Below, in pieces: positions 1-28,224 of a stretch of DNA of 36,701 nt. The DNA comes from Actinomycetota bacterium (GTDB lineage Bacteria > Actinomycetota > JAICYB01). The notes beneath the pieces are model-generated. The model was not told where the DNA came from, searched no databases, and saw only the letters and a list, made by a program, of their open reading frames with translations. The position numbers and the translations under genes were made by a program. The stretch lies in contig DATLFR010000024.1 of assembly GCA_035540895.1 (NCBI GenBank), positions 1 through 36,701 of the forward strand, read 5' to 3'. How positions within the stretch are numbered: the first letter of the stretch is position 1; each line of letters opens with the position of its first letter.

Positions 1-1457
1 TCCCCGCGGAACGCGGCCCGCAGCAGCTTCTTGTCTCCCGGACCTATGAGCTCGCCGGGGTGGCACGCCAGGACGAGCTCAAGCAGTTCGCGGTGCATGA
101 ACGGATAGGACCTGCGCACACCGAGCGAGCTCGCCGCCTCCCAGCCCATCGAGGTGAACTCCGACACCTCCAGGTAGTGCCACAGGCTCCTCCAGGGCGC
201 GTCCTGTGAGACGACCCGGGCCAGGGCGTCCCGTCGGATATCGGTCAGCTCCTCCTGCAGCTCGGGCCGGGTGAAGGAGGGGAGGGTGCGCGGGTAGCCG
301 ATCCGATGAGACGACCTGAGTCGCCGGCGCCGCACGAGCCAGCGGAGGACGTCCCGGTCCCGTCCGGGGAGGCTCTCTCGGTGGCGCAGCAGCTCGATCA
401 GCCCCGTCTCGGCCAGCCAGTCGGAGGTCGTGGAGCCCAGCGACCCCGTCGTCTCGTCGCCCATCTCCCCACCGGTCAGCACACGCACGTCCCCGGAGGC
501 CGTGACGCGGGGCAGGTAGCAGAGGACCGGGTGGGGGACGTGGTACGCGACGGGGGGTGCTTCGTCCAGCACCCGCAGGCGGGCGGAGAGGTCGCCCTCG
601 AACTCGTACCCGGGCTCGATACCTTCCTCGTCGCGCAGCCGCCGCAGCCTGGCCACCTCCTCCTCATAGGACGGCGAGGAGACGGACGGGAGCACCGAGA
701 GGCTCCCGAGATGAGCACCGAGGATCCGTCGCGCTATGAGGGCGAGGAGCGACGAGTCGACACCGCCGCTGAGCGACAGGACGTTCCCCTGTGGGGCGAG
801 ATCCCGTTCGAGCGCGGTGATCAGGCACGTCCGCAGCTGCGACGCGTGCGCCGCGGCGGTCTGGGGATCCGGGCGGGAGACCGACGGGGGCCGCGGATCC
901 CAGTACCGGCGGCGCTCGGCGCTGCGTCCACGCAGCCGGACGAACTCGCCTCGTCGCACGACCGACACCCCGGACAGGAACGTCCGGCCCTCGATCGAAG
1001 CGGGGTGTCCGGTCAGCCACACCGCGTTCTGGAGAGGGTCGAGCCGAGGGTCCGGAAGGTACCGGGCGAAGTAGGTCAGCCTCGTCCCGACCGCCCATCC
1101 GTCCGGGGTCGCCGCCCAGTACGCGGGGACGAGCCCGCCGCACGACCTGACCGCTATCGCGTCGTCCTCTCCGGGAGCCAGCTTCAGGACCCCCACGTCC
1201 CGGTGCCCGCGGGAGCCGAGGACCGTCGGGTCGAGCGGGCCGCCGGACGGGAGCGAGGGCTCGTCGGACTCGAAGACGATCGTGTCCGTGCTCTCGGGTG
1301 GACCGCTCTCGTCGAGCGGTGCCACGGCGACCAGCCAGCCGGCGGGCCCGTCAGAGACCGACGTGACCCCTTCAAGCTGGCGCAGCTTCCGCCGGGCCGG
1401 CTCGCGACGGGCCGGATCGGCTACCTGCACCGCGAAGACGTTGAGCAGGTTCCTCAC
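1..1457 (-). CDS. Lasso peptide cyclase (C protein, asparagine-synthetase-like), 3' end cut by the window
   Basis: It would close the isopeptide (macrolactam) ring of the lasso peptide by adenylating the Asp side chain of the core. In the 485 codons present, residues about 1-200 are a degenerate N-terminal glutaminase-like half without the N-terminal Cys nucleophile, followed by a YWDP motif. The asparagine-synthase half has the ATP pyrophosphatase loop LSLSGGVDSS at about 227-236 and GGEMGDE at about 329-335. The start is GTG, sharing GTGA with the stop of the kinase gene. I see no stop before base 1, so the C-terminal part is missing. Asparagine-synthase enzymes act in other pathways too, but the precursor, B1 and B2 upstream make the lasso role the best reading. 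Confidence 0.88.
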   Translation of the reverse strand, partial: MRNLLNVFAVQVADPARREPARRKLRQLEGVTSVSDGPAGWLVAVAPLDESGPPESTDTIVFESDEPSLPSGGPLDPTVLGSRGHRDVGVLKLAPGEDDAIAVRSCGGLVPAYWAATPDGWAVGTRLTYFARYLPDPRLDPLQNAVWLTGHPASIEGRTFLSGVSVVRRGEFVRLRGRSAERRRYWDPRPPSVSRPDPQTAAAHASQLRTCLITALERDLAPQGNVLSLSGGVDSSLLALIARRILGAHLGSLSVLPSVSSPSYEEEVARLRRLRDEEGIEPGYEFEGDLSARLRVLDEAPPVAYHVPHPVLCYLPRVTASGDVRVLTGGEMGDETTGSLGSTTSDWLAETGLIELLRHRESLPGRDRDVLRWLVRRRRLRSSHRIGYPRTLPSFTRPELQEELTDIRRDALARVVSQDAPWRSLWHYLEVSEFTSMGWEAASSLGVRRSYPFMHRELLELVLACHPGELIGPGDKKLLRAAFRG

Positions 1458-2386
1458 TGCGATCCGTGGAAGCCGTCCTCGACGAGGGCGGCCAGCTCGT
1501 CGAGGTGGTCGTCCCGGTGAAGATCCCCCCACGGCAGGGTGACCTCGTACATGGGCGTGGCGTCGCAGACGGCGGCCAACTGGTCGAGCTGTGAAGTCAG
1601 CATGCCCGGGTCCCGGATGCCCAGGACGCGGGGGATGCGCAGCAGGGTCACCACCGCGTCGGCCGGGGACAGGGGCCGGTATCGCAGGCCCTCGGTCTCC
1701 CGTGAGAGTCGCAGGTAGACGATCGTATCCAGCGGGACCGGCTCCGCGACGGGGGAGCGGCGGTAGCTGACCCTGCCGTCGGCGGTCGACGGAGCGCTGT
1801 CCGCCGAGAGCGCCGGCAGGTATCGGAGCGCGTTCGGCCGGAGCCTGATCTCGGCCGGTCCGGGGTGGCACAACACCTGTGCCCCCCCCACCGAGACCCG
1901 CAGGACGTCGTCGGTCACGAGCTCGGCTCCCCTCTCGCAGAGGGCGGCCGCCGTCGTCGACTTCCCGCCCCCCGACGAGGCCACGAGCGCGACGGTCCTC
2001 CCTCTCACTCGGACGGCGCTCGCGTGGAGCACCGGGTCGTGCTGGGCCAGCATGAAGGACATCACCGTCCCCGTGAAGAGGACCGCGGCCAACCCCTCGG
2101 ACGTCCCCTCCGGGAGATACGCGGTGACGTCGTCGTCACGCCCTACGTGGAACCCTGCGACGTCCGAGAACCGGATGAAGTGGTCGCCGTCCTGCCGGGA
2201 GACCGAGAAGGCGGCCGGCGAGCCGACCTCCGCGATCACCGTCCCGTTGCGGTCCTCGTCGTGCCGGTGAGGTCGGCAAGAGAGCTTGATCCGCCTGTCT
2301 CCCGTCCAGCCGGGCTCGGCGTGGGGCGCCACGAGAGGCAGCGCGGACCGGACGAGGCATCCGTACAGCCTGTAGCTGCCCGTCAT
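1454..2386 (-). CDS. HPr-kinase-like kinase of the lasso cluster (predicted precursor Ser kinase)
   Basis: The 310-aa protein resembles HprK-type kinases found in some lasso clusters, such as paeninodin's, where the enzyme phosphorylates the C-terminal Ser of the precursor. Visible motifs are LHASAV at about 120-125, a Walker A loop SSGGGKST at about 137-144, and LVTDDV at about 157-161, the usual kinase order. The start is ATG at 2386, overlapping the B2 stop as ATGA, and the end overlaps the cyclase start as GTGA, so it is translated in the operon. The precursor in this cluster ends in Ser, which fits. Substrate and phosphorylation are inferred from family and context. Confidence 0.82.
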   Translation of the reverse strand: MTGSYRLYGCLVRSALPLVAPHAEPGWTGDRRIKLSCRPHRHDEDRNGTVIAEVGSPAAFSVSRQDGDHFIRFSDVAGFHVGRDDDVTAYLPEGTSEGLAAVLFTGTVMSFMLAQHDPVLHASAVRVRGRTVALVASSGGGKSTTAAALCERGAELVTDDVLRVSVGGAQVLCHPGPAEIRLRPNALRYLPALSADSAPSTADGRVSYRRSPVAEPVPLDTIVYLRLSRETEGLRYRPLSPADAVVTLLRIPRVLGIRDPGMLTSQLDQLAAVCDATPMYEVTLPWGDLHRDDHLDELAALVEDGFHGSQ

Positions 2387-2832
2387 CCTCCGCTTGCGGC
2401 GTGCGTGAGGAGCCTGAAACCCGAGGTGTCGGCCCGAGAGGCGTCCAGGACGTGTCCGTCGATCTCGAGCCACGCGTGCGCGCGGACCCCGTCGGCGCCG
2501 GGAGCCACGCCGATCCTCAGGATCGGGGCGCGGTCGCGGAGCAGATGGCCGAGCACGAGGGACGTGCGCAGGCACTGCGGTCGGCCGCTCAGCCCGAGGA
2601 CCCTCCGTGTCGCCCGGACGCGGCGCCGCTCGGCCTCGTCGAGGTGCGGCCGCTCGCCGGTCTCAGAACCCTCCGGACCGTCACCGAGCCGGAACCCGAG
2701 CCCCTCGACGACGAGGGGCAGGGGGCGCCTGCGCAGTGCGCACTCGACGCGCGCGACCGTGAGGGCCGCTCGGACGGTCGCGCGGCGCTCGGCGCGCGGG
2801 AGCCTTCGGAAGGCTCGGAGGCTCCGTATCAA
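2383..2832 (-). CDS. Lasso peptide B2 protein, transglutaminase-like leader peptidase
   Basis: The 149-aa cysteine protease would cut the leader off the precursor. The pattern is that of the lasso B2 family: Cys87 in the context PQCLRTSL, His119 in RAHAW and an acidic residue at about Asp130 in GHVLD form the expected Cys-His-Asp triad. I place the start at TTG (2832), because TTGA overlaps the B1 stop and no ATG or GTG fits before the conserved region. The length is normal for split B2 proteins that work with a separate B1. It overlaps the kinase start by four bases. Confidence 0.88.
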   Translation of the reverse strand: MIRSLRAFRRLPRAERRATVRAALTVARVECALRRRPLPLVVEGLGFRLGDGPEGSETGERPHLDEAERRRVRATRRVLGLSGRPQCLRTSLVLGHLLRDRAPILRIGVAPGADGVRAHAWLEIDGHVLDASRADTSGFRLLTHAASGG

Positions 2833-3086
2833 GCGGACTCCTCGACCAGCCCGTGGATGAGCAGCTGCTGCCAGGCGACGTCGAGATCGGCCGCCGCGCG
2901 CAGCTCGGTGACGTCGAACTCGGAGACGATCGAGGCGAGGACAGAGGATCGGCTCTCGCCCGCTGCGGCCAGCTGCCAGATGCGGGTGGCCACCCGATTC
3001 AGGGTGAAGTACGTCCCCGACGCGAGGTCGAGGGCGACGGCTTCGGAGCCGACCACCTGATGGGTCACGTGCTCTGGGATCTTCAA
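2829..3086 (-). CDS. Lasso peptide B1 protein, PqqD-like RiPP recognition element
   Basis: The 85-aa PqqD-fold protein should bind the precursor leader and deliver it to B2 and C. It shows the family pattern: a start like MKIPEHV, then VALDLASGTYFTLN, ATRIWQLAA and a C-terminal helix ending HGLVEESA. I chose TTG at 3086 because a perfect AGGAGG (3092-3097) lies five bases upstream. A GTG at 3104 overlapping the RTX stop (GTGA) is in frame and would add six residues. Either way its translation is tied to the RTX gene upstream. It ends in a TTGA overlap with B2. Confidence 0.87.
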   Translation of the reverse strand: MKIPEHVTHQVVGSEAVALDLASGTYFTLNRVATRIWQLAAAGESRSSVLASIVSEFDVTELRAAADLDVAWQQLLIHGLVEESA

Positions 3087-3100
3087 GGGGTCCTCCTGGG

Positions 3101-5839
3101 TCACGGGCAGTTCGTGAGGGCGTTCGTGCCGGCTCCCCCGTCGCACACGTTGGTGCCGGGGCGCCCTCCGTCGAGGTCGTCGTCGCCGTCCCCGCCGAAG
3201 AGCGAGTCGTCTCCGGCGTCCCCACGCAGGACGTCGTTGCCGTCGTAGCCGTGGAGGATGTCGTTCCCGGCGCCACCGTGCAGGACGTTCGCCACGTTCG
3301 TGGCGTGGAGCGTGTCGTTGAAAGCGGAGCCCGACAGGTTCTCAACGCCCGAGAGGTTGTCGGTACCGGCGCCAACCGTCGCCTGAGGACCGACGATGCG
3401 CAGGTCGACGAGGACGCCCGCGGCGGCATGGAAGTAGCTGACCGTGTCGTTCCCGTCGCCGCCCGTCAGCGTGTCGTCGCTCGATCCTCCGTAGAGCACA
3501 TCGTCCCCGCCCTGACCATCGAGGGTGTTGATGCCCTCGTGGCCGAACAGGGTGTCGTTGCCGCCTCCACCGAGGAGCGTGTCGTTGCCTCCCTTGCCTC
3601 GCAGGTTGTTGCTCCCGCCGTCGCCCTTGAGGGTGTCCGCGTGGTCCGATCCGGTGAGGTTCTCGATGCCGCTGAGCTGGTCGGACCCGTCCCCGCCGGT
3701 GTTCTGCGCCGAGGCCACCGCCAGGTCGACGGTCACGCCGCCGGCCGCCTGCGAGTAGCTCGCCGAGTCGATGCCCGCGCCGCCGGTCAGGACGTCGTTG
3801 CCGGGTCCGCCCTGCAGGCCGTCGTTGCCTCCGGCCCCGTCGATCGTGTCGTTGCCGGGTCCGCCCCTGAGCACGTCGTTCCCGGACCCCCCGGTGAGGG
3901 TGTCGTCGTACCGGGAGCCGGTGAGCTGCTCGAAGCCGGACAGCGTGTCCGTGCCGTCCCCGACCGTGTTCTGCGCGCCTCCCACGCCGAGGTTGACGGT
4001 CACTCCCGTCTCGGAGGGCTCGTAGCTGACGTTGTCCACGCCTAGGCCGGCGTCCAGGACGTCGTCTCCCGGCCCGCCCGAGATGGTGTCGTCACCGTCG
4101 GCGCCGCTGATCTGGTCGTTGCCGCCCCGGCCCCACAGGTGGTTCGCGGCCCCGTTGCCGGTGATCGTGTCGTTGCCCTCGCTGCCCGATGCGTGATCGA
4201 TCCCCAGCAGGACGTCGGCCCCCTCGCCCGAGGCGGTGCCGGTAGCGAGGTTCACCGTGACCGGGCCCGTACGACCACGGTGGGTCACGATGTCCTGGCC
4301 GGCGCCGCCGTCCAGGCGGTTGTCCAGGGCGTTCCCGGAGAGGACGTCGTTGAACGCGGTGCCGGTGAGGTTCTCGAAGTTGAGGATCGTGTCGTTGCCG
4401 TCACGGGTGTCCTGCGCGGTGTTCAGCGAGAGGTTGACCCGCACCCCGTTCGGGCGGCCGGCGAAGCTGACCGTGTCGGTCCCCGCCGCGCCGTCGAGCA
4501 CGTTGTTCAGAGCGCTCCCCATGATCGTGTCGTTCCCGGGCGTCGCGATGACGTTCTCCAGGTTCAGGAAGGTCTTGTTGCTGCCTGCGCCGACCGTGTT
4601 CTGGGGGCCGGTCGCGGCCAGGTCCACCGTCACGCCGGACCCCGCGCAGAACGAGAGCGTGTCCGCACCGGGAGCGCCGTCGATCCGGTTGTTGCTCTCT
4701 GTGCCGGTGGCGATGGTGTCGGGTCCGTCCGACCCGATCAGGTTGAGGATCCCGGTGAAGGTGTCGGAGCCGTCCCCCGTGGCCGTCTGGGTGCAGAGGT
4801 TCGCGCTGACGGGCCCCGGACGCTCGGCGTAGGAGACGATGTTGACGGCGCCGGACCCCCCGGCCGTGAAGACGTCGTTGCCGGGCCCGCTCTGGAACAC
4901 GTTCGTGATGCCGGCTCCCGACTGACCGATGATGTCGGCTCCTCCCGGTCCGCCCTGGAAGCCGTTGCAGCTCGCCTTCACCGCGTCGTTGCCCTCCTCG
5001 GTGGCATTCACCGAGTAGTCCGTCCCCAGGTTCGCCTGGAAGCGGTTGTTCAGGTGACCGAAGATCGCCACGTCGTTCCCGGTGCCGCAGTCGAGGGTGT
5101 CGTTGCCCTGTCCCCCCCACAGCTTGTCGTCACCCGCGCCTCCGAGGAGCGTCATGTTCCGGGTCGTCCCCACGCGCGTCGCGGTCCCGGAGGCGGGAGC
5201 GGTCGCGGTGAAACCGCCCTCGCCCCCGATGATGTGATCGTTGCCGGCCCCCCCCTGGACGGTGAACTTGGCCTGGGTACCGCCGAGGTTGTGGATGGCC
5301 ATGTCGGATGCGCCGTCGTTGTCTCGGTCCACCACCGTGTAGGTGATGGCGCCGCCGGCGGCCATGCCCAGGCGCGTCTTGCGGGTCTCCGGTGTTGAGT
5401 AGGTCCTGAACGTGAACTCGTCGTTGCCCGACCCTCCGTTCACGTTCACCGCTATCAGCTGGTTCGTGGAGCTGTTGCGGAGAGGGTGGGTCGACTCGCT
5501 TATGTCGAGGTACTGGGTCGAGTTCTCGCCCTGCACGTTGATCGTGGTCGTGTTCGCCAGGGTCGCGGTCCCGCACTGCTGGAACGTCGTGGGGGGCGTC
5601 CAGTTGTTGCCGCTCTTCCCCCAGATGCCGAACTGGATCACCGACCCGTCCGTCTGGACCGTGACGCCCTCGTTCCCCGCGTTCAGGGATACCGTGACCG
5701 TTGAGCCGGCGATGCCGCAGGTGACGGCGGCCGAGACGGGGATCGACGGAAGAGACGACGCGAGCATGAACACGAGGCTCATCCCCGCCAGGAGTGCTGC
5801 CTTCTGGACGCGCGTGACGCTAGAGGATCTGCCAGACAT
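3101..5839 (-). CDS. Secreted RTX-type calcium-binding repeat protein inside the lasso operon
   Basis: The 912-aa exported protein has a signal peptide at about 1-37 (hydrophobic stretch, then VSA/A). From about 135 to the end it carries many glycine/aspartate nonapeptides of the RTX type (GGxGxDxLx) that normally fold as a calcium-loaded beta-roll. They are interleaved with about six longer modules of the form GVTVDLA...AQNTVGDGTD...LSGxENLTGS, near 402, 465, 526, 612, 701 and 808. The end is Cys-containing (CDGGAG...NCP). It lies 38 bases after the precursor gene and overlaps the B1 start region, so it belongs to the lasso transcript. RTX proteins are not a standard lasso component; a role in binding, export or storage is only inference. 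Confidence 0.9.
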   Translation of the reverse strand: MSGRSSSVTRVQKAALLAGMSLVFMLASSLPSIPVSAAVTCGIAGSTVTVSLNAGNEGVTVQTDGSVIQFGIWGKSGNNWTPPTTFQQCGTATLANTTTINVQGENSTQYLDISESTHPLRNSSTNQLIAVNVNGGSGNDEFTFRTYSTPETRKTRLGMAAGGAITYTVVDRDNDGASDMAIHNLGGTQAKFTVQGGAGNDHIIGGEGGFTATAPASGTATRVGTTRNMTLLGGAGDDKLWGGQGNDTLDCGTGNDVAIFGHLNNRFQANLGTDYSVNATEEGNDAVKASCNGFQGGPGGADIIGQSGAGITNVFQSGPGNDVFTAGGSGAVNIVSYAERPGPVSANLCTQTATGDGSDTFTGILNLIGSDGPDTIATGTESNNRIDGAPGADTLSFCAGSGVTVDLAATGPQNTVGAGSNKTFLNLENVIATPGNDTIMGSALNNVLDGAAGTDTVSFAGRPNGVRVNLSLNTAQDTRDGNDTILNFENLTGTAFNDVLSGNALDNRLDGGAGQDIVTHRGRTGPVTVNLATGTASGEGADVLLGIDHASGSEGNDTITGNGAANHLWGRGGNDQISGADGDDTISGGPGDDVLDAGLGVDNVSYEPSETGVTVNLGVGGAQNTVGDGTDTLSGFEQLTGSRYDDTLTGGSGNDVLRGGPGNDTIDGAGGNDGLQGGPGNDVLTGGAGIDSASYSQAAGGVTVDLAVASAQNTGGDGSDQLSGIENLTGSDHADTLKGDGGSNNLRGKGGNDTLLGGGGNDTLFGHEGINTLDGQGGDDVLYGGSSDDTLTGGDGNDTVSYFHAAAGVLVDLRIVGPQATVGAGTDNLSGVENLSGSAFNDTLHATNVANVLHGGAGNDILHGYDGNDVLRGDAGDDSLFGGDGDDDLDGGRPGTNVCDGGAGTNALTNCP

Positions 5840-5877
5840 CGGACCTGCCCTTCGCTCTGTGGCCGTCGAGGGATGCT

Positions 5878-6072
5878 TCAGCTGATGCCCATCGGGAGGA
5901 TGCCGCCGCCTTGAGCGTCGGACCCGAGGACGTCGTCGCCGCCCCTGGTGATCTCGATCAGGCTCCCGAGGACGGTCACGGCCGGAGCCTCGTAAGGCAG
6001 TTTCTGGCTCGATGCGACGGGGGTCGCGTCGGTCCCGGCGCGCGCGAGCGCGCCGTCACTGGCGTCGTGCAT
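5878..6072 (-). CDS. Lasso peptide precursor (A), 64 aa
   Basis: The leader (1-43) carries the lasso recognition signature YxxPxVxxxGxxxxxT: Tyr27, Pro30, Val32, Gly36 and Thr42. Thr42 is the usual penultimate leader residue, so the core is residues 44-64 (21 aa). The core begins with Gly and has Asp at core position 9, giving a nine-residue ring GGDDVLGSD. The tail ends LPMGIS with a C-terminal Ser, the residue a cluster kinase would modify. There is no Cys, so it would be a class II lasso peptide. The start ATG at 6072 has a modest GGGTGG upstream; longer in-frame starts give an arginine-rich extension unlike a leader. It is the first gene of the operon. Confidence 0.9.
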   Translation of the reverse strand: MHDASDGALARAGTDATPVASSQKLPYEAPAVTVLGSLIEITRGGDDVLGSDAQGGGILPMGIS

Positions 6073-6374
6073 CAGTACCACCCTTCTGCTCGTTGCCCGC
6101 GTCGCTGGTCGCCCGGTGACCGCGCGCGGTGATGGGGGAATGTTTCGGCGTCCCCTGCACGTCCCCTGCCAGGGCGATCTGGGCATTCCGCCCCCCCGTC
6201 GGGGGATGCAGCGACCAGTTCGGGGGATATCGGACCGGGAAGGAGGGATCGGTGGCCCGGCGGAGAACTAGCCCGCAGTGGCCTAGGACTGGGGGAAGCA
6301 AGGGGCCACGCCGGGATGCTGGGCAAACTCCCGGTTGTCGTCGTTGACGTCGATCCACGAGCTGGGGGTTCTAC
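6073..6374. other. Divergent intergenic region between the lasso operon and the 6375 gene
   Basis: I see no gene here. It should hold the lasso operon promoter (leftward) and the promoter of the gene at 6375 (rightward). Visible structure is a tandem 11-base repeat CGTCCCCTGC(A/C) at 6149-6159 and 6160-6170, and five G5 tracts at 6134, 6201, 6222, 6291 and 6364. I could not assign a convincing -35/-10 pair. Confidence 0.5.
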
Positions 6375-7043
6375 ATGAAGAAGGCACTCGTCGTCGTTGC
6401 GCTCGCCGTCGTGGCGACCGCGCTGGGGGCTGGCGCGGCCTCCGCTCAGTACCCCCCGAAGAGGTGTCAGGTCGGCTACGTCGACGCGAAGGCGAACGTG
6501 GCAGGCCAGAACTTGTCGGTCATTGTCTGCCTCTACGGCGATGACGGCCCGAAGGTGTCCGGAGAGCCTGAGCAGGGATCCCAGCAGGCTGCGAGTGCCG
6601 GCGGGATCGGTTCCCTCCCACAGGAGCTCGTCGAGCACGCCCGCGGGAAGGTGCTGAAGCTCGAGCTCGTCGGGACCGGCGTCTTGACCGAGATCCAGGT
6701 CACCGAGGCCGTCCTGCAGATGAGCCTCCCCATCCCCGCCGAGCTCGCCACCGGGACGTACGAGGTCGTGGCCACGCTCGAGGGCGTGCAGCAGCCGCTG
6801 TTCACCGAGAGCCTTGAGATCTACGCGAAGGACCACCCGAAGGCGAAGCAGATCCTGGCCGCGAAGCAGGGCGTGCAGATCGACACCTCGACGGTGCCGG
6901 CCGCGGCCGAGAAGGCACGCATGGCCGTCGCTTCCGGAGCGGACGCCCTGAGGATCGGCGGCATGGCACTGCTGGCTCTCCTGGCCGCCATCTCCGTCAG
7001 CGCGGTCAGCTACTGGGCGATCGCGCGTCGCAGCTACCTCTAG
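6375..7043 (+). CDS. Exported protein with C-terminal membrane anchor, unknown function
   Basis: The 222-aa protein has a clear signal peptide (1-24, MKKALVVVAL... ending ASA/Q) and a hydrophobic segment from about 195 followed by a short basic end ARRSYL, so it should be anchored outside the cell by its C-terminus. The mature part starts with two Cys (31 and 52) that could pair, then a beta-rich stretch resembling an immunoglobulin-like ligand domain (VLKLELVGTGVL...GTYEVVATLEG). I do not recognise a family. It starts divergently from the lasso operon and is followed by a strong terminator, so it is monocistronic. Confidence 0.8.
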   Translation: MKKALVVVALAVVATALGAGAASAQYPPKRCQVGYVDAKANVAGQNLSVIVCLYGDDGPKVSGEPEQGSQQAASAGGIGSLPQELVEHARGKVLKLELVGTGVLTEIQVTEAVLQMSLPIPAELATGTYEVVATLEGVQQPLFTESLEIYAKDHPKAKQILAAKQGVQIDTSTVPAAAEKARMAVASGADALRIGGMALLALLAAISVSAVSYWAIARRSYL

Positions 7044-7066
7044 GCTCACGACCCCCCAGCTCTTCG

Positions 7067-7092
7067 GGGCGCCGGGCTTCGGCCCGGCGCCC
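7067..7092 (+). terminator. Intrinsic terminator-like hairpin after the 6375 gene
   Basis: A perfect 11-bp stem (GGGCGCCGGGC with GCCCGGCGCCC) closes a TTCG tetraloop and is followed by a short pyrimidine run TCTCGTTC. It sits 23 bases after the stop of the upstream gene and between convergent genes, so it may serve both directions, though the U-rich side favours the plus strand. Confidence 0.8.
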
Positions 7093-7111
7093 TCTCGTTC
7101 CTGCCTCCCCT

Positions 7112-7876
7112 TCAGCCGCTCTCGGACGTGTGCAGCCGCTCGACCCGTTCGAGGACGGCCCCCAGGAGCGCGCCCGCCTCGCCGTGCACGACCAGGTCCG
7201 CGATGTCGTCGTACGGCGTCGGATCCCGGTTGACGATGACGACCCGCGCCCCCGCGCGTTGGGCGAGCGCGGGCATCGCGGCGGCCGGGTAGACGACGAG
7301 GGGCGAACCGACCACGAGGAGGAGGTCCGCCTCCCGGACCCACTCCTCGGCCCGCCGGACGACCTCCGGTTGGAGGGACTGTCCGAACGAGACCGTGGCG
7401 GCCTTCAGGATGCCGCCGCAGCCCGGGCAGTCCGGGTCCGGCTCGCCGGCGTCGACGCGGGCGAGCGCGTCCGTCATGGAGCAGGTGTAGGGGCAGGAGA
7501 GGCAGACGACCCGGCGCATCGTCCCGTGGACCTCCACGGTCGTCGATCCAGCCTCGGCGTGGAGTCCGTCGACGTTCTGCGTAACGACCCCGCGGAACAG
7601 CCCCAGCTCCTCGAACCTGGCGAGGGCGCGGTGGCCCGTGTTGGGTTGGGCCTGCAAGGCCACGACCTCCCTGCGCATCAGCCAGTTCTTGCGGCGAACC
7701 TCGGGGTCGGCCACGTAGCGCTGGAAGGTGAACTCCCTGGGGTCGTAGCGGGTCCAGACGCCGCCTGGGGAGCGGAAGTCGGGTATGCCCGACTCGGTGG
7801 AGATGCCGGCTCCCGTGAACCCCACCCCGGCGCGGGCCCCAGCCACCCACCCGGCGATCCGGTCGATGACGTCCAT
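7112..7876 (-). CDS. cobB: Sir2-family NAD-dependent protein deacylase (sirtuin)
   Basis: The 254-aa protein removes acyl groups from lysines with NAD as co-substrate. Motifs are in sirtuin order: the NAD-binding GAGISTESGIPDFRS at about 22-36, the catalytic TQNVDGLH, and a zinc site from CLSCPYTC and CPGCGG. The length is normal for bacterial CobB. There is no Shine-Dalgarno; TATCCT at 7884-7889 lies seven bases before ATG, so it may be leaderless or expressed with the small gene just upstream (22-base gap). Confidence 0.93.
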   Translation of the reverse strand: MDVIDRIAGWVAGARAGVGFTGAGISTESGIPDFRSPGGVWTRYDPREFTFQRYVADPEVRRKNWLMRREVVALQAQPNTGHRALARFEELGLFRGVVTQNVDGLHAEAGSTTVEVHGTMRRVVCLSCPYTCSMTDALARVDAGEPDPDCPGCGGILKAATVSFGQSLQPEVVRRAEEWVREADLLLVVGSPLVVYPAAAMPALAQRAGARVVIVNRDPTPYDDIADLVVHGEAGALLGAVLERVERLHTSESG

Positions 7877-8345: not shown

Positions 8346-9758
8346 ATGGCGAAGACCCCCCTTGAGATAGACCCCCAGGGCTCCTACGAGCAGCGTTGGG
8401 GCTGGCACGACCCAGAGAACTACGTCTTCAAGCCCTCGAAGGGGATCGACCAGACGAAGGTCGAGGAGATCTCCTTCATGAAGTCCGAGCCGAAGTGGAT
8501 GCGCGACTTCAGGCTGAAGTCCTTCGAGCGATACGTCCGTCGGCCGATGCCGAACTGGGGAGCCGATCTGTCCGGCATCGACTTCGACGACATCTACTAC
8601 TTCCTCCGCGCGACCGACAAGCCCGGCCGCACGTGGGACGAGGTGCCGGCCGATATCAAGAACACGTTCGACCGCCTGGGGATCCCCGAAGCCGAGCGCG
8701 AGTACCTGGCCGGTGTCTCGGCCCAGTACGAGAGCGAGAGCGTCTACCACTCCGTGCAGGAGTCGCTGACGAAGCAGGGCGTCATCTTCATGGACATGGA
8801 CTCGGCCATCCGCGAGGTGCCGGAGCTCGTCCAGAGGTACTGGGCCACGGTGATCCCTCCGAACGACAACAAGCTCGCCGCCCTCAACTCGGCCGTGTGG
8901 TCCGGCGGCTCCTTCATCTACGTCCCCCCGGGCGTGAAGGTCGACGTGCCGCTGCAGGCCTACTTCCGCATCAACGCGGAGAACATGGGCCAGTTCGAGC
9001 GCACGCTGATCATCGCCGACGAGGGCTCGTACGTTCACTACGTGGAGGGATGCACGGCGCCTGCCTACACGTCCGCGTCGCTGCACTCGGCCGTGGTCGA
9101 GCTGATCGCGCTGCCCCACTCCCGGATCCGCTACACCACGATCCAGAACTGGGCGGGTAGCGTCTACAACCTGGTCACGAAGCGCGCGGTCGCCCACGAG
9201 AACGCCGTCGTGGAGTGGGTCGACGGCAACATCGGGTCCAAGGTCACGATGAAGTACCCCGCCGTGGTGCTCGCCGGACGGAAGGCGCACGGAGAGGTGC
9301 TGTCCCTCGCGATGGCCAACCGCGGCCAGCACCAGGACACGGGAGCCAAGATGACCCACGCGGCTCCCGAGACGTCGTCCACGATCATCTCGAAGTCCAT
9401 CTCGAAGGACGGGGGCCGGACGTCGTACCGCGGCCTCGTGAAGGTCGAGGAGGGCGCCTACAAGAGCCGGTCGAACGTGGTCTGCGACGCGCTCCTGATC
9501 GACGACGAATCGATCTCGGACACCTACCCCTACATGGACATCCGCGAGGAGGACGTCTCCATCGGCCACGAGGCCACCGTGGCCCGCATCGGCGACGACC
9601 AGATGTTCTACCTGCAGAGCCGCGGGATCCCCGAGGCCGAGGCGGCCGCGATGATCGTGCGCGGGTTCATCGAGCCGATCGCCAAGTCGCTCCCTATGGA
9701 GTACGCGGTCGAGTTGAACCGGTTGATCGAGCTCGAGATGGAAGGCTCGGTCGGCTAG
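8346..9758 (+). CDS. sufB: Fe-S cluster assembly scaffold SufB
   Basis: The 470-aa protein is the scaffold subunit of the SufBCD complex, on which sulfur from SufS/SufU and iron are assembled into clusters in the cytoplasm. It is recognised along its whole length: the early [12 protein letters not shown] region, [22 protein letters not shown] in the middle, and the C-terminal [24 protein letters not shown] block. The length is normal and no intein is seen. It stands alone, about 14 kb from sufD, with its own regulated promoter and a terminator behind it. Most actinobacteria keep sufB next to sufD. Confidence 0.97.
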
Positions 9759-15092: not shown

Positions 15093-15677
15093 CTAGCCGC
15101 GGTGCTCCGGGAGGAGGCAGGCCCCGCCCTCCGAGAACCCCTGAGCCCCCACGCCGAGCCCCCGGTTGAACCGGGACAGGAGGTTCTCGGTGGCGATCGT
15201 CGCGGTCAGCTCGACCAGCTGGCGTTCGTCGAGTTGCGCCCGGAGCTCCGCGAACAGATCGTCGGGCACGTCAGCGGGCGACCGGCTGAGGGCTTCCGCG
15301 TAGCGGAGCACGGCCCGCTCGAGGGGGGAGAAGGCCTCGCTCGCCGGATCCCCCACGGCGAGCAGCTTCTCCTCACTGAGGCCGGTCGCCCTGACCAGGG
15401 CGGAACCGAAATCCAGTCACCAGGGGCATCCCACGATCGTGGACACCTTCGCCCGGGCGAGCTCGCGCAGGTCGAACGGGACGGACCGCGATCTCAGGAG
15501 CGCGCGTTCCAGCAGGCCGTACGCCTGCATGACCGACGGAGAGTGGGCGAGGAGCTTGTAGGGCTCCAGCACCTCGTCGCGTCCCATCAGCTTGCGGGTG
15601 ACGCGCCGCCCGATCAGGTACGTGGCCTTCACGAGCAGCGGGGCTCCCTTGGGCTCGACGCCTCTGATCCTGGCCAT
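15093..15677 (-). CDS. Carboxymuconolactone-decarboxylase/AhpD-like protein, candidate selenoprotein with CPWU
   Basis: Read through one in-frame TGA (15417-15419), this frame gives a 194-aa protein of the CMD/AhpD-like family. The TGA is codon 87 in GCPW-U-LDFGSA, where Cys-containing relatives have a second Cys (pattern CPxC-[IL]D-GSA), so it replaces the redox or resolving cysteine. The frame continues another 108 codons with conserved family text: FSPLERAVLRYAEALSR, LDERQLVELTATIA and NLLSRFNRGLGVGAQGFSEG. The start ATG at 15677 has GGAGGAG upstream. A hairpin at 15383-15408 meets SECIS rules. AhpD-like proteins act on peroxides or use a CxxC redox pair. The alternative is a nonsense mutation; the exact position of TGA argues against it. 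Confidence 0.8.
15383..15408 (-). promoter_or_regulatory. Predicted bacterial SECIS hairpin
   Basis: Downstream of the TGA, bases +16 to +20 (GCCCU) pair with +25 to +29 (AGGGC) around a GGUC loop whose first base, G, is +21. A lower stem CGGU (+9 to +12) pairs with ACCG (+31 to +34) across a small internal loop. Bacterial SECIS elements have a short upper stem with a G among the first two loop bases, 16-37 bases after the UGA. The E. coli fdhF loop also contains GGUC. Confidence 0.7.
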
Positions 15678-15744
15678 GGTCTCCTCCCGGACCCAGCGTA
15701 GCTCGCCCCGTTTGGCTCGAGCCACGCCTGGGCACACGTCACCC

Positions 15745-23506: not shown

Positions 23507-23847
23507 CGCCTGCGGACGGACCGGCCCGCGTGGCGCGCTCCGCCGGACCGCCGGCTGTGAACCCCCCGGCCCGCGTCTGCGCCGGCGCACCGGGCCACAT
23601 GTGGCCGCTTCCGCCGGACCACGCTCGACCCACGGCCCTCCTCGCGCGTGCGCCGGCGCGTCCGGCCGCAGCCGCCCCCGATCCCCCGTCCGGGCGTGAC
23701 GCCGTCGCCGGCTCCCGGCTCCCGCTTGTGAACGGATGCACGACCTGGACGGATTTGGCCAACCTCGATAGGATTTAGAAGCGACCGGGAGCCGCCCACG
23801 GCGTGACCGGGCGGCGGCGCCGGCTCCCCTACCACCACCGAGGTGCC
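23507..23847. other. Intergenic region upstream of sufD
   Basis: Apart from the regulatory block at 23727-23774 described separately, I see no gene or RNA in this stretch. Its first 200 bases are G+C-rich, and the frames there read as Pro/Ala/Arg-rich shadow text. Confidence 0.55.
23727..23774 (+). promoter_or_regulatory. sufD operon promoter block matching the sufB promoter
   Basis: TGTGA at 23727-23731 begins a degenerate CRP-like site (TGTGA-N6-GCACG). It is followed by -35 TGGACG (23746-23751) and -10 TAGGAT (23769-23774), 17 bases apart. The spacer contains GATTTGGCCAAC, in which TTGGCCAA is palindromic. From the -35 box on, 29 of 32 bases equal the sufB promoter. Confidence 0.7.
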
Positions 23848-25128
23848 ATGACCGCGACGACCACCTACACCGATCCGCAGTGGGTCTCCGACCTGCGGCG
23901 ACGAGCCGCCGAGGCCCGGGACCAGGCCGTCTACCCGTCCGGGCGGGAGGAACACTGGCGTTTCACCGACGTGTCCTTGCTCCGCCCGGAGCTCTACGAC
24001 GCGACGCCCGCCGAGAGCGACCGCACCACGACCCCAGGGAAGGCGACCTCCGCGCTCGAGCTGTCCGGGCTCCAGTCGGCGGGTCGCGCGATCCACACCG
24101 ACGCGTCGCTCGCCGAGCTCACGCTCTCAGACGAGGCGATGTCCAAGGGCGTCGTCTTCAAGCCGCTCGGCGAGGCCGTCCAGACGCATGCCGACGTCCT
24201 CGAGCCGCGGCTCGGCTCCCTGGTCGGCGCCAGCGACACCTTCACGTCCTGGTCGCTCGCCGACTGGCGCGGCGGGATGTTCCTGTACGTCCCCCGCGGG
24301 GTCTCGCTCACGGACCCGATCCAGGCCCTGCACTGGATCGACGCGGCGGGCACGGTGGTCCAGCCCCGGACCGTCGTCGTCGTGGAGGAGGACGCTCGCG
24401 TCGTCTTCAACGACCTATACGCCTCCAACGACCTGGACCGTCCCACGCTCGCCATGCCCACCGTCGAGCTGTTCGTGGGGCGGGGGGCCAACGTCGGCTG
24501 GGTCACCTGGCAGGACTGGGGATCGGGCGTCCGGCACCTGGCGCACGTGAAGGCGCAGCTCGACCGGGACGCGACCCTCAACACGCTGCTCGTGACGCTC
24601 GGCGGCGACTTCAGCCGGACGACGAAGGAGTGCGTCCTGGCCGGCGAGGGAGCCGAGAGCTACATGTACGGTCTGTACTTCCCGCACGGCGAGCAGCGCT
24701 TCGAGCACTGGACGGTCCAGGACCACGCGAGTCCCAACACGACGTCCGACCTGCTGTACAAGGGCGCGCTGACCGACACCTCGCAGGCCGTCTACTACGG
24801 GACGATCGTCGTCCGGCCGGGCTCGGCCAAGACGAACGCCTACCAGGCCAACCGGAACCTGACCCTGTCTCCGAGGGCGCGCGCGCTCACGAACCCGCAG
24901 CTCGAGATCCAGAACAACGACGTCCGGTGCACGCACGGCGCCACCGTCGGACAGATCGACGAGGACCACCTCTTCTACATCCAGAGCCGCGGCGTCCCCC
25001 GCGACGAGGCGGAGCGACTCGTCGTGTTCGGGTTCTTCAACGAGGTGCTCGAGCGCGTCACGTGGTCGGGCATGCACGAGCGGCTCGCCGAGGCGATCCG
25101 TCACAAGATGCTGGGAGCCGACCTGTGA
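23848..25128 (+). CDS. sufD: Fe-S cluster assembly protein SufD
   Basis: The 426-aa partner of SufB in the SufBC2D complex is needed for iron entry and cluster formation. Its C-terminal block NDVRCTHGATVGQIDEDHLFYIQSRGVP is the family hallmark. The beginning EEHWRFTDVSLLRPELYDA is also typical of SufD and not of SufB. The start ATG has GAGG close upstream. It is the first gene of the operon and shares a GTGA overlap with the Rieske gene. SufB itself is encoded 14 kb away. Confidence 0.96.
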   Translation: MTATTTYTDPQWVSDLRRRAAEARDQAVYPSGREEHWRFTDVSLLRPELYDATPAESDRTTTPGKATSALELSGLQSAGRAIHTDASLAELTLSDEAMSKGVVFKPLGEAVQTHADVLEPRLGSLVGASDTFTSWSLADWRGGMFLYVPRGVSLTDPIQALHWIDAAGTVVQPRTVVVVEEDARVVFNDLYASNDLDRPTLAMPTVELFVGRGANVGWVTWQDWGSGVRHLAHVKAQLDRDATLNTLLVTLGGDFSRTTKECVLAGEGAESYMYGLYFPHGEQRFEHWTVQDHASPNTTSDLLYKGALTDTSQAVYYGTIVVRPGSAKTNAYQANRNLTLSPRARALTNPQLEIQNNDVRCTHGATVGQIDEDHLFYIQSRGVPRDEAERLVVFGFFNEVLERVTWSGMHERLAEAIRHKMLGADL

Positions 25129-25445
25129 GCGAGTGGGTGCGTGTCGCCTCGGTCCAAGACATCCCGGACGACGAGGCCTTCCAGGTGAAGGCGGGCGGCG
25201 ACCTGATCGCGCTCGTCCGCTACGAGGGCGAGCTCTACGCCGTCTCGGACATCTGCACGCACGAGTACACGCACCTGTCCGACGGGTTCATCGACGGACC
25301 GTGCATCGAGTGCCCGTTGCACGGGGCGATGTTCGACGTCCGGACCGGCGAGGTGAAGGCGCTGCCCGCCACGAAGCCCCTCCGGACGTTCCCGGCCAAG
25401 ATCGACGGCGACGACGTCTACATCCAGATAGGAGACCCCGCATGA
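25125..25445 (+). CDS. Rieske [2Fe-2S] ferredoxin of the SUF operon
   Basis: The 106-aa protein has the Rieske cluster ligands CTH (context DICTHEYTHL) and CPLH (context IECPLHGAMF), two Cys and two His. The length is that of non-heme oxygenase ferredoxins. It sits between sufD and sufC with four-base overlaps at both ends, a placement known in several actinobacteria. A role as electron donor to cluster assembly or repair is likely but inferred. The start is GTG. Confidence 0.93.
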   Translation: MSEWVRVASVQDIPDDEAFQVKAGGDLIALVRYEGELYAVSDICTHEYTHLSDGFIDGPCIECPLHGAMFDVRTGEVKALPATKPLRTFPAKIDGDDVYIQIGDPA

Positions 25446-26224
25446 GCCTTCTCGAGATCCATGACCTGCACGTGACCGTCGAGGACAAGCCCATCCTCCG
25501 CGGCGTCGACCTCGTGGTGGACGAGGGCAAGGTCCACGCGTTGATGGGTCCGAACGGGTCGGGGAAGTCGACGCTGGCGAGCGTCCTGATGGGCCATCCC
25601 GCCTTCGAGATCACGGGCGGACGGATCGTCTTCAAGGGTGAGGACATCACCGAGGACTCCCCGGAGGACCGCGCTGCCAAGGGGGTCTTCCTGGCCTTCC
25701 AGTACCCGGTCGAGGTCCCGGGGGTGTCGGTCTCGAACTTCCTACGCACCTCGATCAACGCCGTGCGCGGCACCGACGTCCCCATACGGGAGTTCATGCA
25801 GCAGCTGCGTGAGGCCATGGAGCTGCTCGGCATGGACCCCGACTTCGCGAAGCGCAGCATCAACGAGGGGTTCTCCGGGGGAGAGAAGAAGCGCAACGAG
25901 ATCCTGCAGCTGGCGCTGCTCCGCCCCGCCCTCGCGATCCTGGACGAGACCGACTCCGGTCTGGACATCGACGCGCTGCGGATCGTGTCCGAGGCCGTGA
26001 ACAAGGTGAAGGGTCCGGACATGGGGATCCTGATCATCACCCACTACACCCGGATCCTGAACTACATCACCCCCGACGTCGTGCACATCCTGCTCGGCGG
26101 TCGGGTGGTGCGGACGGGAGGTCCGGAGCTCGCCCACCACCTCGAGGAGGCCGGGTACGAGGCGATCCGCGCGGAGTACGGTATCGACACGGACGAAGCG
26201 GTGACGGAGAAGGCACAGGGATGA
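25442..26224 (+). CDS. sufC: Fe-S cluster assembly ATPase SufC
   Basis: The 260-aa ABC-type ATPase works in the soluble SufBC2D complex, with no transport role. Walker A is GPNGSGKST, the SufC-specific AFQYPVEVPGVSVSNFLR follows, then the signature FSGGEKKRNEILQLALL, Walker B AILDETDSGLDIDAL and the switch ITHYTRIL. It overlaps both neighbours by ATGA. Confidence 0.97.
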   Translation: MSLLEIHDLHVTVEDKPILRGVDLVVDEGKVHALMGPNGSGKSTLASVLMGHPAFEITGGRIVFKGEDITEDSPEDRAAKGVFLAFQYPVEVPGVSVSNFLRTSINAVRGTDVPIREFMQQLREAMELLGMDPDFAKRSINEGFSGGEKKRNEILQLALLRPALAILDETDSGLDIDALRIVSEAVNKVKGPDMGILIITHYTRILNYITPDVVHILLGGRVVRTGGPELAHHLEEAGYEAIRAEYGIDTDEAVTEKAQG

Positions 26225-27468
26225 CCCTGGACGTGGCGAGGGTCCGCTCAGACTTCCCGGTCCTCGGCCGGGAGGTCAACGGGCGTCCGCTCGTCTACCT
26301 CGACTCGGCCGCGACCTCTCAGAAGCCGCGGTCGGTCATCGACGCGATGACCGAGTACTACGAGCGGTACAACTCCAACGCCCACCGGGGCCTGCACGCG
26401 CTGGCCGCGGAGGCCACCGTCGCCTACGAGGCCGCCCGGGACAAGATCGCCCGGTTCGTCGGGGCTCCCGACGCGCGCGGGGTCGTCTTCACACGGAACA
26501 CGACCGAGGCCATCAACCTCGTGTCCTACGCGTGGGCCCGGCGCCGGCTCGGCCCGGGCGACGAGATCCTCGCCTCGGTGATGGAGCACCACTCCAACCT
26601 CGTCCCGTGGCAGCTCGCCGCGGCCGATACCGGGGCGACGGTGCGCTACATCCCCGTCACCGACGGCGGCGAGCTCGACCTGTCCGACCTCGGGAGCCTG
26701 GTGACCGATCGCACGAAGTTGGTCGCGGTGAGCGGTATGTCCAACGTCTTGGGCACGATCAACGACCTGGGCCCCCTGGTCGAGGCGGCGCGCGCGGTCG
26801 GGGCGCTCGTCCTCGTCGACGGGGCGCAGCTCGTCATGCACACCCCTGTCGCGTTCACGGAGCTCGGCGCCGACCTACTCGCCTTCTCGGCCCACAAGAT
26901 GCTCGGCCCCACGGGGATCGGGTGCCTCGTGGCCCGTCCGGAGCTCCTGGAGAGCATGGACCCGTTCCTGGGCGGCGGCGAGATGATCTCCGACGTGACG
27001 CTCGAGGGTTCGACGTGGGCGGACATCCCGTTCAAGTTCGAGGCGGGGACCCAGGCGATAGCCGAGGCCGTCGGGTTCGGCGCAGCGGTCGACTACCTGA
27101 CCCAGCTCGGCATGGAGGCGGTCCGCGACCACGAGGTCGAGCTGTCCCGGTACGCGCTGAAGGAGCTCGGCTCGGTCGAGGGCGTCGTCGTGTACGGACC
27201 GCGGGAATCGGAGCGACGGGGCGCCGTGTTCTCATTCAACGTGTACGACGACCGCGGAGAGCTGATCCACCCCCACGACGTGGCCACGATGCTCGACCAG
27301 GACGGGATAGCGGTGCGGGCCGGACATCACTGCGCCCGGCCGCTCATGCGGCGTCTGGACGTGCCGGCCACGAACCGCGCGTCGTGCTACGTCTACAACT
27401 CGGAGAGCGACATAGACGCGCTCGTCGAGTCCATCGAGCGCACGAAGCGCTTCTTCATCGGAGGTTGA
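26221..27468 (+). CDS. sufS: Cysteine desulfurase SufS
   Basis: The 415-aa PLP enzyme takes sulfur from cysteine and passes it to SufU. Visible features are YLDSAATSQKP near the start, NAHRGLHALA, VDGAQ for cofactor binding, the PLP lysine in AFSAHKMLGPTG, and the active-site Cys in RAGHHCARPLMRRL. The length is normal. It overlaps sufC by ATGA; sufU follows one base after its stop. Confidence 0.97.
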   Translation: MTLDVARVRSDFPVLGREVNGRPLVYLDSAATSQKPRSVIDAMTEYYERYNSNAHRGLHALAAEATVAYEAARDKIARFVGAPDARGVVFTRNTTEAINLVSYAWARRRLGPGDEILASVMEHHSNLVPWQLAAADTGATVRYIPVTDGGELDLSDLGSLVTDRTKLVAVSGMSNVLGTINDLGPLVEAARAVGALVLVDGAQLVMHTPVAFTELGADLLAFSAHKMLGPTGIGCLVARPELLESMDPFLGGGEMISDVTLEGSTWADIPFKFEAGTQAIAEAVGFGAAVDYLTQLGMEAVRDHEVELSRYALKELGSVEGVVVYGPRESERRGAVFSFNVYDDRGELIHPHDVATMLDQDGIAVRAGHHCARPLMRRLDVPATNRASCYVYNSESDIDALVESIERTKRFFIGG

Positions 27469-27469
27469 G

Positions 27470-27907
27470 GTGTCGGCCGAGGACCTGTACCGAGAGATCA
27501 TCCTGGACCACTACCGGTCGCCGAGGAACAAGCGGCGAGGGGTGGAGGGCGCCATCGACGTGAAGCACGACAACCCGCTGTGCGGCGACGAGCTGCACCT
27601 GGCCGTGGACGTGCGCAACGGCGAGCTGTCCGACGTCGCCTTCGACGGCCGGGGGTGCTCCATCTCCCAGGCCTCGGCGTCGATGATGACGGAGGCCGTC
27701 CGCGGGAGGTCCGTCTCCGACGCCCTGGGCATCGCGGAGACGGTTCGGCTCATGATGCACGGCGAGTCGCCCTCCGACGACCTCGGCGACCTGATGGCGC
27801 TCGAGGGCGTGGCCCGGTTCCCGGTTCGCGTGAAGTGCGCCCTGCTCGCGTGGATGGCGCTGAAGGACGCGCTTGGACGCGTCGACGGACGGGGGGCCCC
27901 CGCATGA
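27470..27907 (+). CDS. sufU: Sulfur-relay protein SufU
   Basis: The 145-aa zinc-containing protein accepts sulfur from SufS. It shows the SufU ligands: Cys and Asp in NPLCGD, Cys in GRGCSISQAS and Cys in VKCALLAW, and the N-terminal LYREIILDHYRSPRNKR. The start is GTG, one base after sufS. The end overlaps sufT by ATGA. Confidence 0.95.
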   Translation: MSAEDLYREIILDHYRSPRNKRRGVEGAIDVKHDNPLCGDELHLAVDVRNGELSDVAFDGRGCSISQASASMMTEAVRGRSVSDALGIAETVRLMMHGESPSDDLGDLMALEGVARFPVRVKCALLAWMALKDALGRVDGRGAPA

Positions 27908-28224
27908 GCGAGGTGCAGATCCGAGAGGAAGAGGTCTGGGAGGCGCTGACCGCCGTCACCGACCCAGAGATCGGAGTCGACCTCGTGAACCTCGGCCTGA
28001 TCTACGGCGTCGAGTCGGACGGCTCCCACGTGAAGGTGCGGATGACGCTCACCTCGATGGGTTGCCCGGCCACGGGGCTGCTGGAGTTCCAGGTGAAGGA
28101 GGCGGTGGGGACGGTCGACGGGGTCGAGAACGTCACCGTCGAGTTCACGTTCGAGCCCGCCTGGACCCCCGACCGGATGACGGAGGAAGGCCGGGACATG
28201 ATGGCCGCGATGGGCTTCTGGTGA
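27904..28224 (+). CDS. sufT: SufT-like MIP18/DUF59 protein
   Basis: The 106-aa DUF59 protein has the family start VWEALTAVTDPEIGVDLVNLGLIYGV and the Cys in TSMGCPATG. In other bacteria SufT helps mature Fe-S proteins. It is the last gene of the suf operon (ATGA overlap with sufU). PaaD, a relative in phenylacetate degradation, is excluded by context. Confidence 0.9.
   Translation: MSEVQIREEEVWEALTAVTDPEIGVDLVNLGLIYGVESDGSHVKVRMTLTSMGCPATGLLEFQVKEAVGTVDGVENVTVEFTFEPAWTPDRMTEEGRDMMAAMGFW

Follow-up and report, generated by a model that had tools for sequence, protein, structure and literature searches.

A candidate selenocysteine-containing AhpD-like protein encoded across an in-frame TGA in an actinobacterial genome

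We describe a gene of the CMD/AhpD-like family with a stop codon in frame which, as judged from sequence comparison, almost certainly encodes selenocysteine (Sec). It lies within a stretch of 36,701 nucleotides, referred to as the window throughout. Our best explanation, with a probability of about 0.95, is that the gene encodes a Sec-containing AhpD-like thiol/selenol peroxidase, or a peroxidase-reducing partner, of the CMD superfamily, by SelB-dependent decoding of UGA at residue 87. Our computations show a reading frame that is conserved across the TGA, an alignment column occupied by Cys or Sec, the Sec machinery in the genome, a SECIS-like hairpin, and an AhpD-like fold. CxxU selenoproteins of the AhpD/CMD type have been known since 2005, and the gene is a well-supported new example rather than a new type.

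Gene, reading frame and SECIS-like hairpin

The following features, all on the minus strand, were delimited:

15093..15677, minus strand: predicted selenoprotein gene for a 194-aa CMD/AhpD-like protein with motif C84-P-W-U87 (from translation with TGA as Sec, PF02627, homologues and an AlphaFold2 model)
15417..15419, minus strand: in-frame TGA, predicted Sec at residue 87, second position of the CxxC motif (from the Cys/TGA alignment column)
15382..15409, minus strand: SECIS-like hairpin with a lower stem, a 2-nt bulge, a 6-bp upper stem and a GGUC apical loop starting 21 nt after the UGA (from folding)
15681..15688, minus strand: Shine-Dalgarno-like GGGAGGAG, separated from the ATG by 3 nt (from the upstream sequence)

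The gene starts with ATG at 15677-15675, with GGGAGGAG just upstream, and ends with TAG at 15095-15093, which amounts to 194 residues counting Sec. A single TGA occurs in frame (15419-15417, residue 87, within CPWU), and with this codon translated as U the protein reads MARIRGVEPK...STIVGCPWULDFGSALVRATG...LPEHRG. The initial annotation had reported a frame at 15093-15677 that is complete except for one TGA; frame and coordinates are correct, while the strand, which is minus, had not been given. A plus-strand reading of the same interval was rejected, as it gives no family-like protein. Downstream of the TGA we count 107 sense codons, and not 108 as stated before.

At 70% GC, the open stretch after the TGA is unremarkable when taken alone (chance about 0.16, from base composition). 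The conservation of family sequence in the codons behind it is beyond chance: the PF02627 (CMD) match at 47-129 runs across the TGA (6.8e-8, 32.8 bits, gathering cut-off 23), and alignments to dozens of homologues continue through it. GC3 amounts to 0.92 in the part ahead of the TGA and to 0.91 in the part behind it. The ORF list of the window cuts the gene in two at this point, as standard ORF calling does.

A search for a SECIS element had been proposed, and a SECIS-like hairpin was indeed found after the TGA, specific to the Sec copies. Using positions +7 to +36 after the column as folding window and synonymous-codon shuffles as control, we obtained a mean z of -1.68 for Sec copies and of +0.26 for Cys copies (Mann-Whitney p 5e-7). 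For the hairpin of the window gene by itself, the values are less marked (synonymous-codon z -1.71, p 0.044; dinucleotide-shuffle z -0.76). Since it stands only modestly above its controls, the support for a SECIS element comes from the comparison across homologues. Two hairpin registers are found among the Sec copies. In the commoner one, with loop GUG or GUC (13 sequences), 93% of the cells pair and double changes occur in three out of seven pairs; its covariation score was reached by none of 500 shuffles and is lost when the register is slid. The other register, with the loop GGUC located two to three bases further on, is present in the window gene and in homologue L029, and a similar arrangement seems to exist in two distant homologues, L058 and L059. 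When the window gene is compared with L029, one pair shows a compensatory change, C-G to U-A; the codon changes behind it, GCC to GCT for Ala and AGG to AGA for Arg, are synonymous. GGUC also occurs within the loop of E. coli fdhF. From the sequence, a SECIS hairpin with a G in the apical loop is predicted just after the UGA. Rfam at gathering thresholds matched nothing in the window.

The Sec/Cys column and the Sec machinery

A search of the phylum gave matches in 64 of the 397 genomes searched, and a different collection contributed further homologues from an Acidobacteria MAG (TGA), Actinotalea (Cys) and a Rhodobacteraceae MAG (Cys). In the alignment of 43 homologues, the TGA column holds TGA in 22 and Cys in 21 cases (18 TGC, 3 TGT) and no other residue. 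This confirms the assignment of the TGA to the second Cys of a CxxC-type motif and settles the alignment check against Cys homologues that the initial annotation had suggested. With Sec scored as Cys, the column is the sole invariant one of a 39-row alignment. Among the matches listed there is no in-frame TAA or TAG, and the sole internal stop is the single TGA. One homologue (L057, genome G149) carries SxxU, i.e., Ser replaces the first Cys and Sec is kept. This suggests that the resolving Cys may be dispensable or located elsewhere, and it would be consistent with the second position being the essential one. L058 and L059 (genomes G076 and G163) are TIGR01926-like Sec members with the motif UQSHG; L058 scores 78.1 against a TIGR01926 cut-off of 81.8.

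Presence of the TGA copy goes along with the Sec machinery. SelA is encoded by 18 of the 20 genomes that carry a TGA copy versus 18 of 34 with Cys copies only (Fisher p 0.007, relatedness ignored; the homologues are mutually related, so the statistics overstate independence). The two TGA-copy genomes lacking SelA are 60% and 68% complete. SelB scores above its curated cut-off in 16 out of 20 TGA-copy genomes; of the genomes with Cys copies only, five were sampled, and SelB passes in none. The four TGA-copy genomes without a passing SelB are G242 (68% complete), G394 (60% complete, truncated hit), G354 (77%) and G184, where the hit is a fragment at a contig edge.

The genome to which the window belongs is a draft of 2.64 Mb in 245 contigs, 97.7% complete. 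It had been expected to hold SelA, SelB, SelC and SelD, and all of them are present. SelA (contig C138) reaches 430.9 bits, and 525 bits against TIGR00474. SelB is encoded near selA on the same strand (308.6 bits, TIGR00475 cut-off 242; 355.9 bits in a second search), a tRNA-Sec gene with anticodon TCA was found, and SelD scores 380.6 bits. The selD gene (L014, G000:C144:5853-6776) itself has an in-frame TGA, HGAG-U-ACKL, followed by a hairpin. A PrxQ-like peroxiredoxin (L060, G000:C103:9024-9389) carries TGA at the peroxidatic position (LADTPGUTVEA, TPGU). The genome thus appears to decode Sec in at least three selenoproteins (AhpD-like, PrxQ-like and SelD), within an actinobacterial class that is sampled here by three genomes. 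No TGA was found within the C-terminal domain searched of its molybdopterin oxidoreductases. At 6190-7377 (plus) of L012, selB and selA are separated by an ORF of opposite orientation that starts like a lipoprotein and contains a thioredoxin-like stretch, FATPRFCASQTCGP. WhiB occurs five times in the genome; within the control set, matches were obtained in Corynebacterium only. To our knowledge, WhiB is limited to Actinomycetota and their phages, and the genome is thus most likely that of an actinobacterium.

These observations bear on three other ways of accounting for the stop codon. The gene could be a pseudogene in which a true nonsense mutation has replaced the Cys codon by TGA. TGC and TGT are one base away from TGA, and the two nearest of the genomes compared, which belong to the same family, lack the gene, so that TGA conservation among close species is not seen. 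We consider this reading highly improbable, as 22 sequences from many genera have TGA at one and the same column, without TAA, TAG or a second stop, GC3 hardly differs on both sides, a Sec-specific hairpin follows, and the genome decodes Sec. An error of sequencing or assembly that turned TGC or TGT into TGA is conceivable in a draft of this many contigs. It is just as improbable, since it would have had to strike the sole invariant column, where 21 other sequences have TGA as well; moreover, this genome has the complete Sec machinery, and the codon stands in front of a GGUC hairpin that is absent from the Cys homologues. Finally, UGA might be read as another amino acid, e.g., by reassignment to Trp or Gly or by a suppressor, and reassignments of UGA do occur in some bacterial lineages. 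This is the least probable of the three: the column shows Cys or UGA and never Trp or Gly, and tRNA-Sec(UCA) is present together with SelA, SelB and SelD.

Fold, active site and known relatives

An AlphaFold2 model, computed with C in place of U, has a pLDDT of 94.1 and a pTM of 0.89. In a fold search with this model, AhpD-like PA0269 and 2PRR are the best PDB matches (AhpD-like E 5e-7 to 1e-5); by sequence, PA0269/AhpD-like is likewise first among the solved relatives, followed by the debrominase Bmp8. The model contains the CxxC-type helix hairpin, where C84-x-x-U87 opens helix 85-97 after helix 68-82.

PA0269 of Pseudomonas aeruginosa (2O4D/2IJC) is 32% identical and shares the fold (TM 0.88-0.89, normalised by target length) with the CxxC helix hairpin. 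It has a Glu located 12 residues ahead of the first Cys, a position held by Glu72 in the window protein. It differs in having Cys instead of Sec. Its proton relay consists of Glu36 and His55 (PMC3141380). Glu72 is spaced like Glu36 and is not conserved in relatives, while the position of His55 is taken by Gly91. The mechanism is therefore probably not identical to that of AhpD from M. tuberculosis. Rv2159c of M. tuberculosis, likened here by its published description, shares the CMD domain and the motif Cys-Pro-Trp-Cys, whose cysteines are residues 81 and 84 (PMC5073100, which prints 'Try', read by us as Trp), but is a Cys form without Sec. In this protein C84S abolishes the alkylhydroperoxidase activity and C81S does not (PMC5073100). 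Since Sec87 is located at the position equivalent to the second Cys of Rv2159c, it is likely, by analogy, the attacking residue.

In the mechanism that we propose, SelB-dependent decoding of the in-frame UGA would insert Sec at residue 87, and Sec87 would attack and reduce hydroperoxides. Alternatively, it might serve as electron donor for a peroxiredoxin, in the way that AhpD serves AhpC. Once oxidised, the selenol would be resolved by Cys84 and then be re-reduced by a thiol donor. We infer the peroxidase activity by analogy to these relatives. The window protein falls below the cut-offs of two related models: the TIGR01926 peroxidase-related enzyme (38.7 bits, cut-off 81.8) and NF041238 AhpD_rel_CFYUT, the Sargasso hypothetical protein 1 (19.8 bits, cut-off 175).

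A selenoprotein that is not a peroxidase, but a reductive dehalogenase of the Bmp8 kind or some other redox enzyme of the CMD type, is a less likely option that we still keep in mind. Bmp8 (6OHI/6OHJ, the latter being the C82A mutant) has the AhpD-like CMD fold and a redox-active CxxC; both the sequence search and the fold search list it with the solved relatives, and the His of AhpD is replaced by Gly91 in our protein. The identity of Bmp8 to the window protein is 21-22%; it acts on a different substrate and is a Cys form. PA0269 ranks above it in both searches, and Rv2159c, in which the matching motif Cys-Pro-Trp-Cys has been studied by experiment, is an alkylhydroperoxidase (PMC5073100), which is in favour of the peroxidase reading.

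Gene context gives no functional clue, because there are no conserved neighbours: the window gene is flanked by genes for mycothiol-isomerase-like, BrkB, HxlR and F420-reductase proteins, and a search of the short flanks of the homologues found none matching these.

The initial annotation was right in recalling AhpD-like CxxU predictions from marine metagenomes. The Sargasso Sea survey of 2005 listed AhpD-like and CMD CxxU selenoproteins with 27 and 4 sequences (PMC1088965), the GOS survey of 2008 AhpD-like 2, PF02627, with 70 sequences (PMC2398784), and a review of 2026 includes such proteins in its tables (PMC13188914). Going by the published descriptions, these selenoproteins, which stem from marine and other metagenome reads, resemble the window protein in having CxxU in a PF02627/AhpD-like domain, a predicted SECIS and widespread Cys homologues. 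The layout can therefore not be called new, as had been supposed, the more so since NCBIfam has a curated model, NF053654 (GroundWater_YciW, 'YciW-related (seleno)protein'), whose cut-off is exceeded by L050, a homologue of this phylum (321.5 bits). The window protein shares full-length homology (1-180), the CMD fold and CxxU with this family, but with 84.4 bits against a cut-off of 310 it lies outside the equivalog, which is a sister family. With the window protein, the AhpD/CMD proteins that contain Sec gain a further subgroup, well supported and uncurated.

Sec/Cys changes and further observations in the window

In the tree, the window protein is placed beside Cys sequences with moderate support (84/80), and at least three Sec/Cys changes are required, on the starred branches. 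A single Sec clade is rejected by the AU test (p 0.009), but not when the most distant pair, L058/L059, is left out (p 0.076). No second copy was found in the window's own order and class, which are covered by three genomes. It is a published pattern that Sec evolves from redox-active Cys, with the loss of selenoproteins as a counterweight (PMC1794560). We may speculate that a separate Cys-to-Sec conversion took place within a branch of Cys-containing CMD proteins, in a class of actinobacteria with few genomes, and that the product works with the Sec-peroxiredoxin (TPGU) of the genome as an all-selenium analogue of AhpC/AhpD; we regard this as doubtful. The mixed Sec/Cys distribution, together with a Cys form whose catalytic residue has been mapped, makes the family a usable test case for what Sec gains over Cys at a single, known position.

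Elsewhere in the window, SufB is encoded about 14 kb from sufD, Rieske, sufC, sufS and sufU (8346-9758 and 23803-28224, plus strand), as read from ORF translations alone. A lasso-peptide cluster occupies 3-6186 on the minus strand, with an asparagine-synthase-like protein (PF00733), an HPr-kinase-like ATPase, a PqqD-like protein and a lasso B2 protein (NF033537, 51.7 bits, cut-off 33). The leader motif of its precursor matches NF033521 with 19.6 against a cut-off of 19, and the precursor ends in ...YEAPAVTVLGSLIEITRGGDDVLGSDAQGGGILPMGIS. Between the precursor and PqqD lies an unusual-looking RTX-repeat protein of 912 aa (3101-5839).
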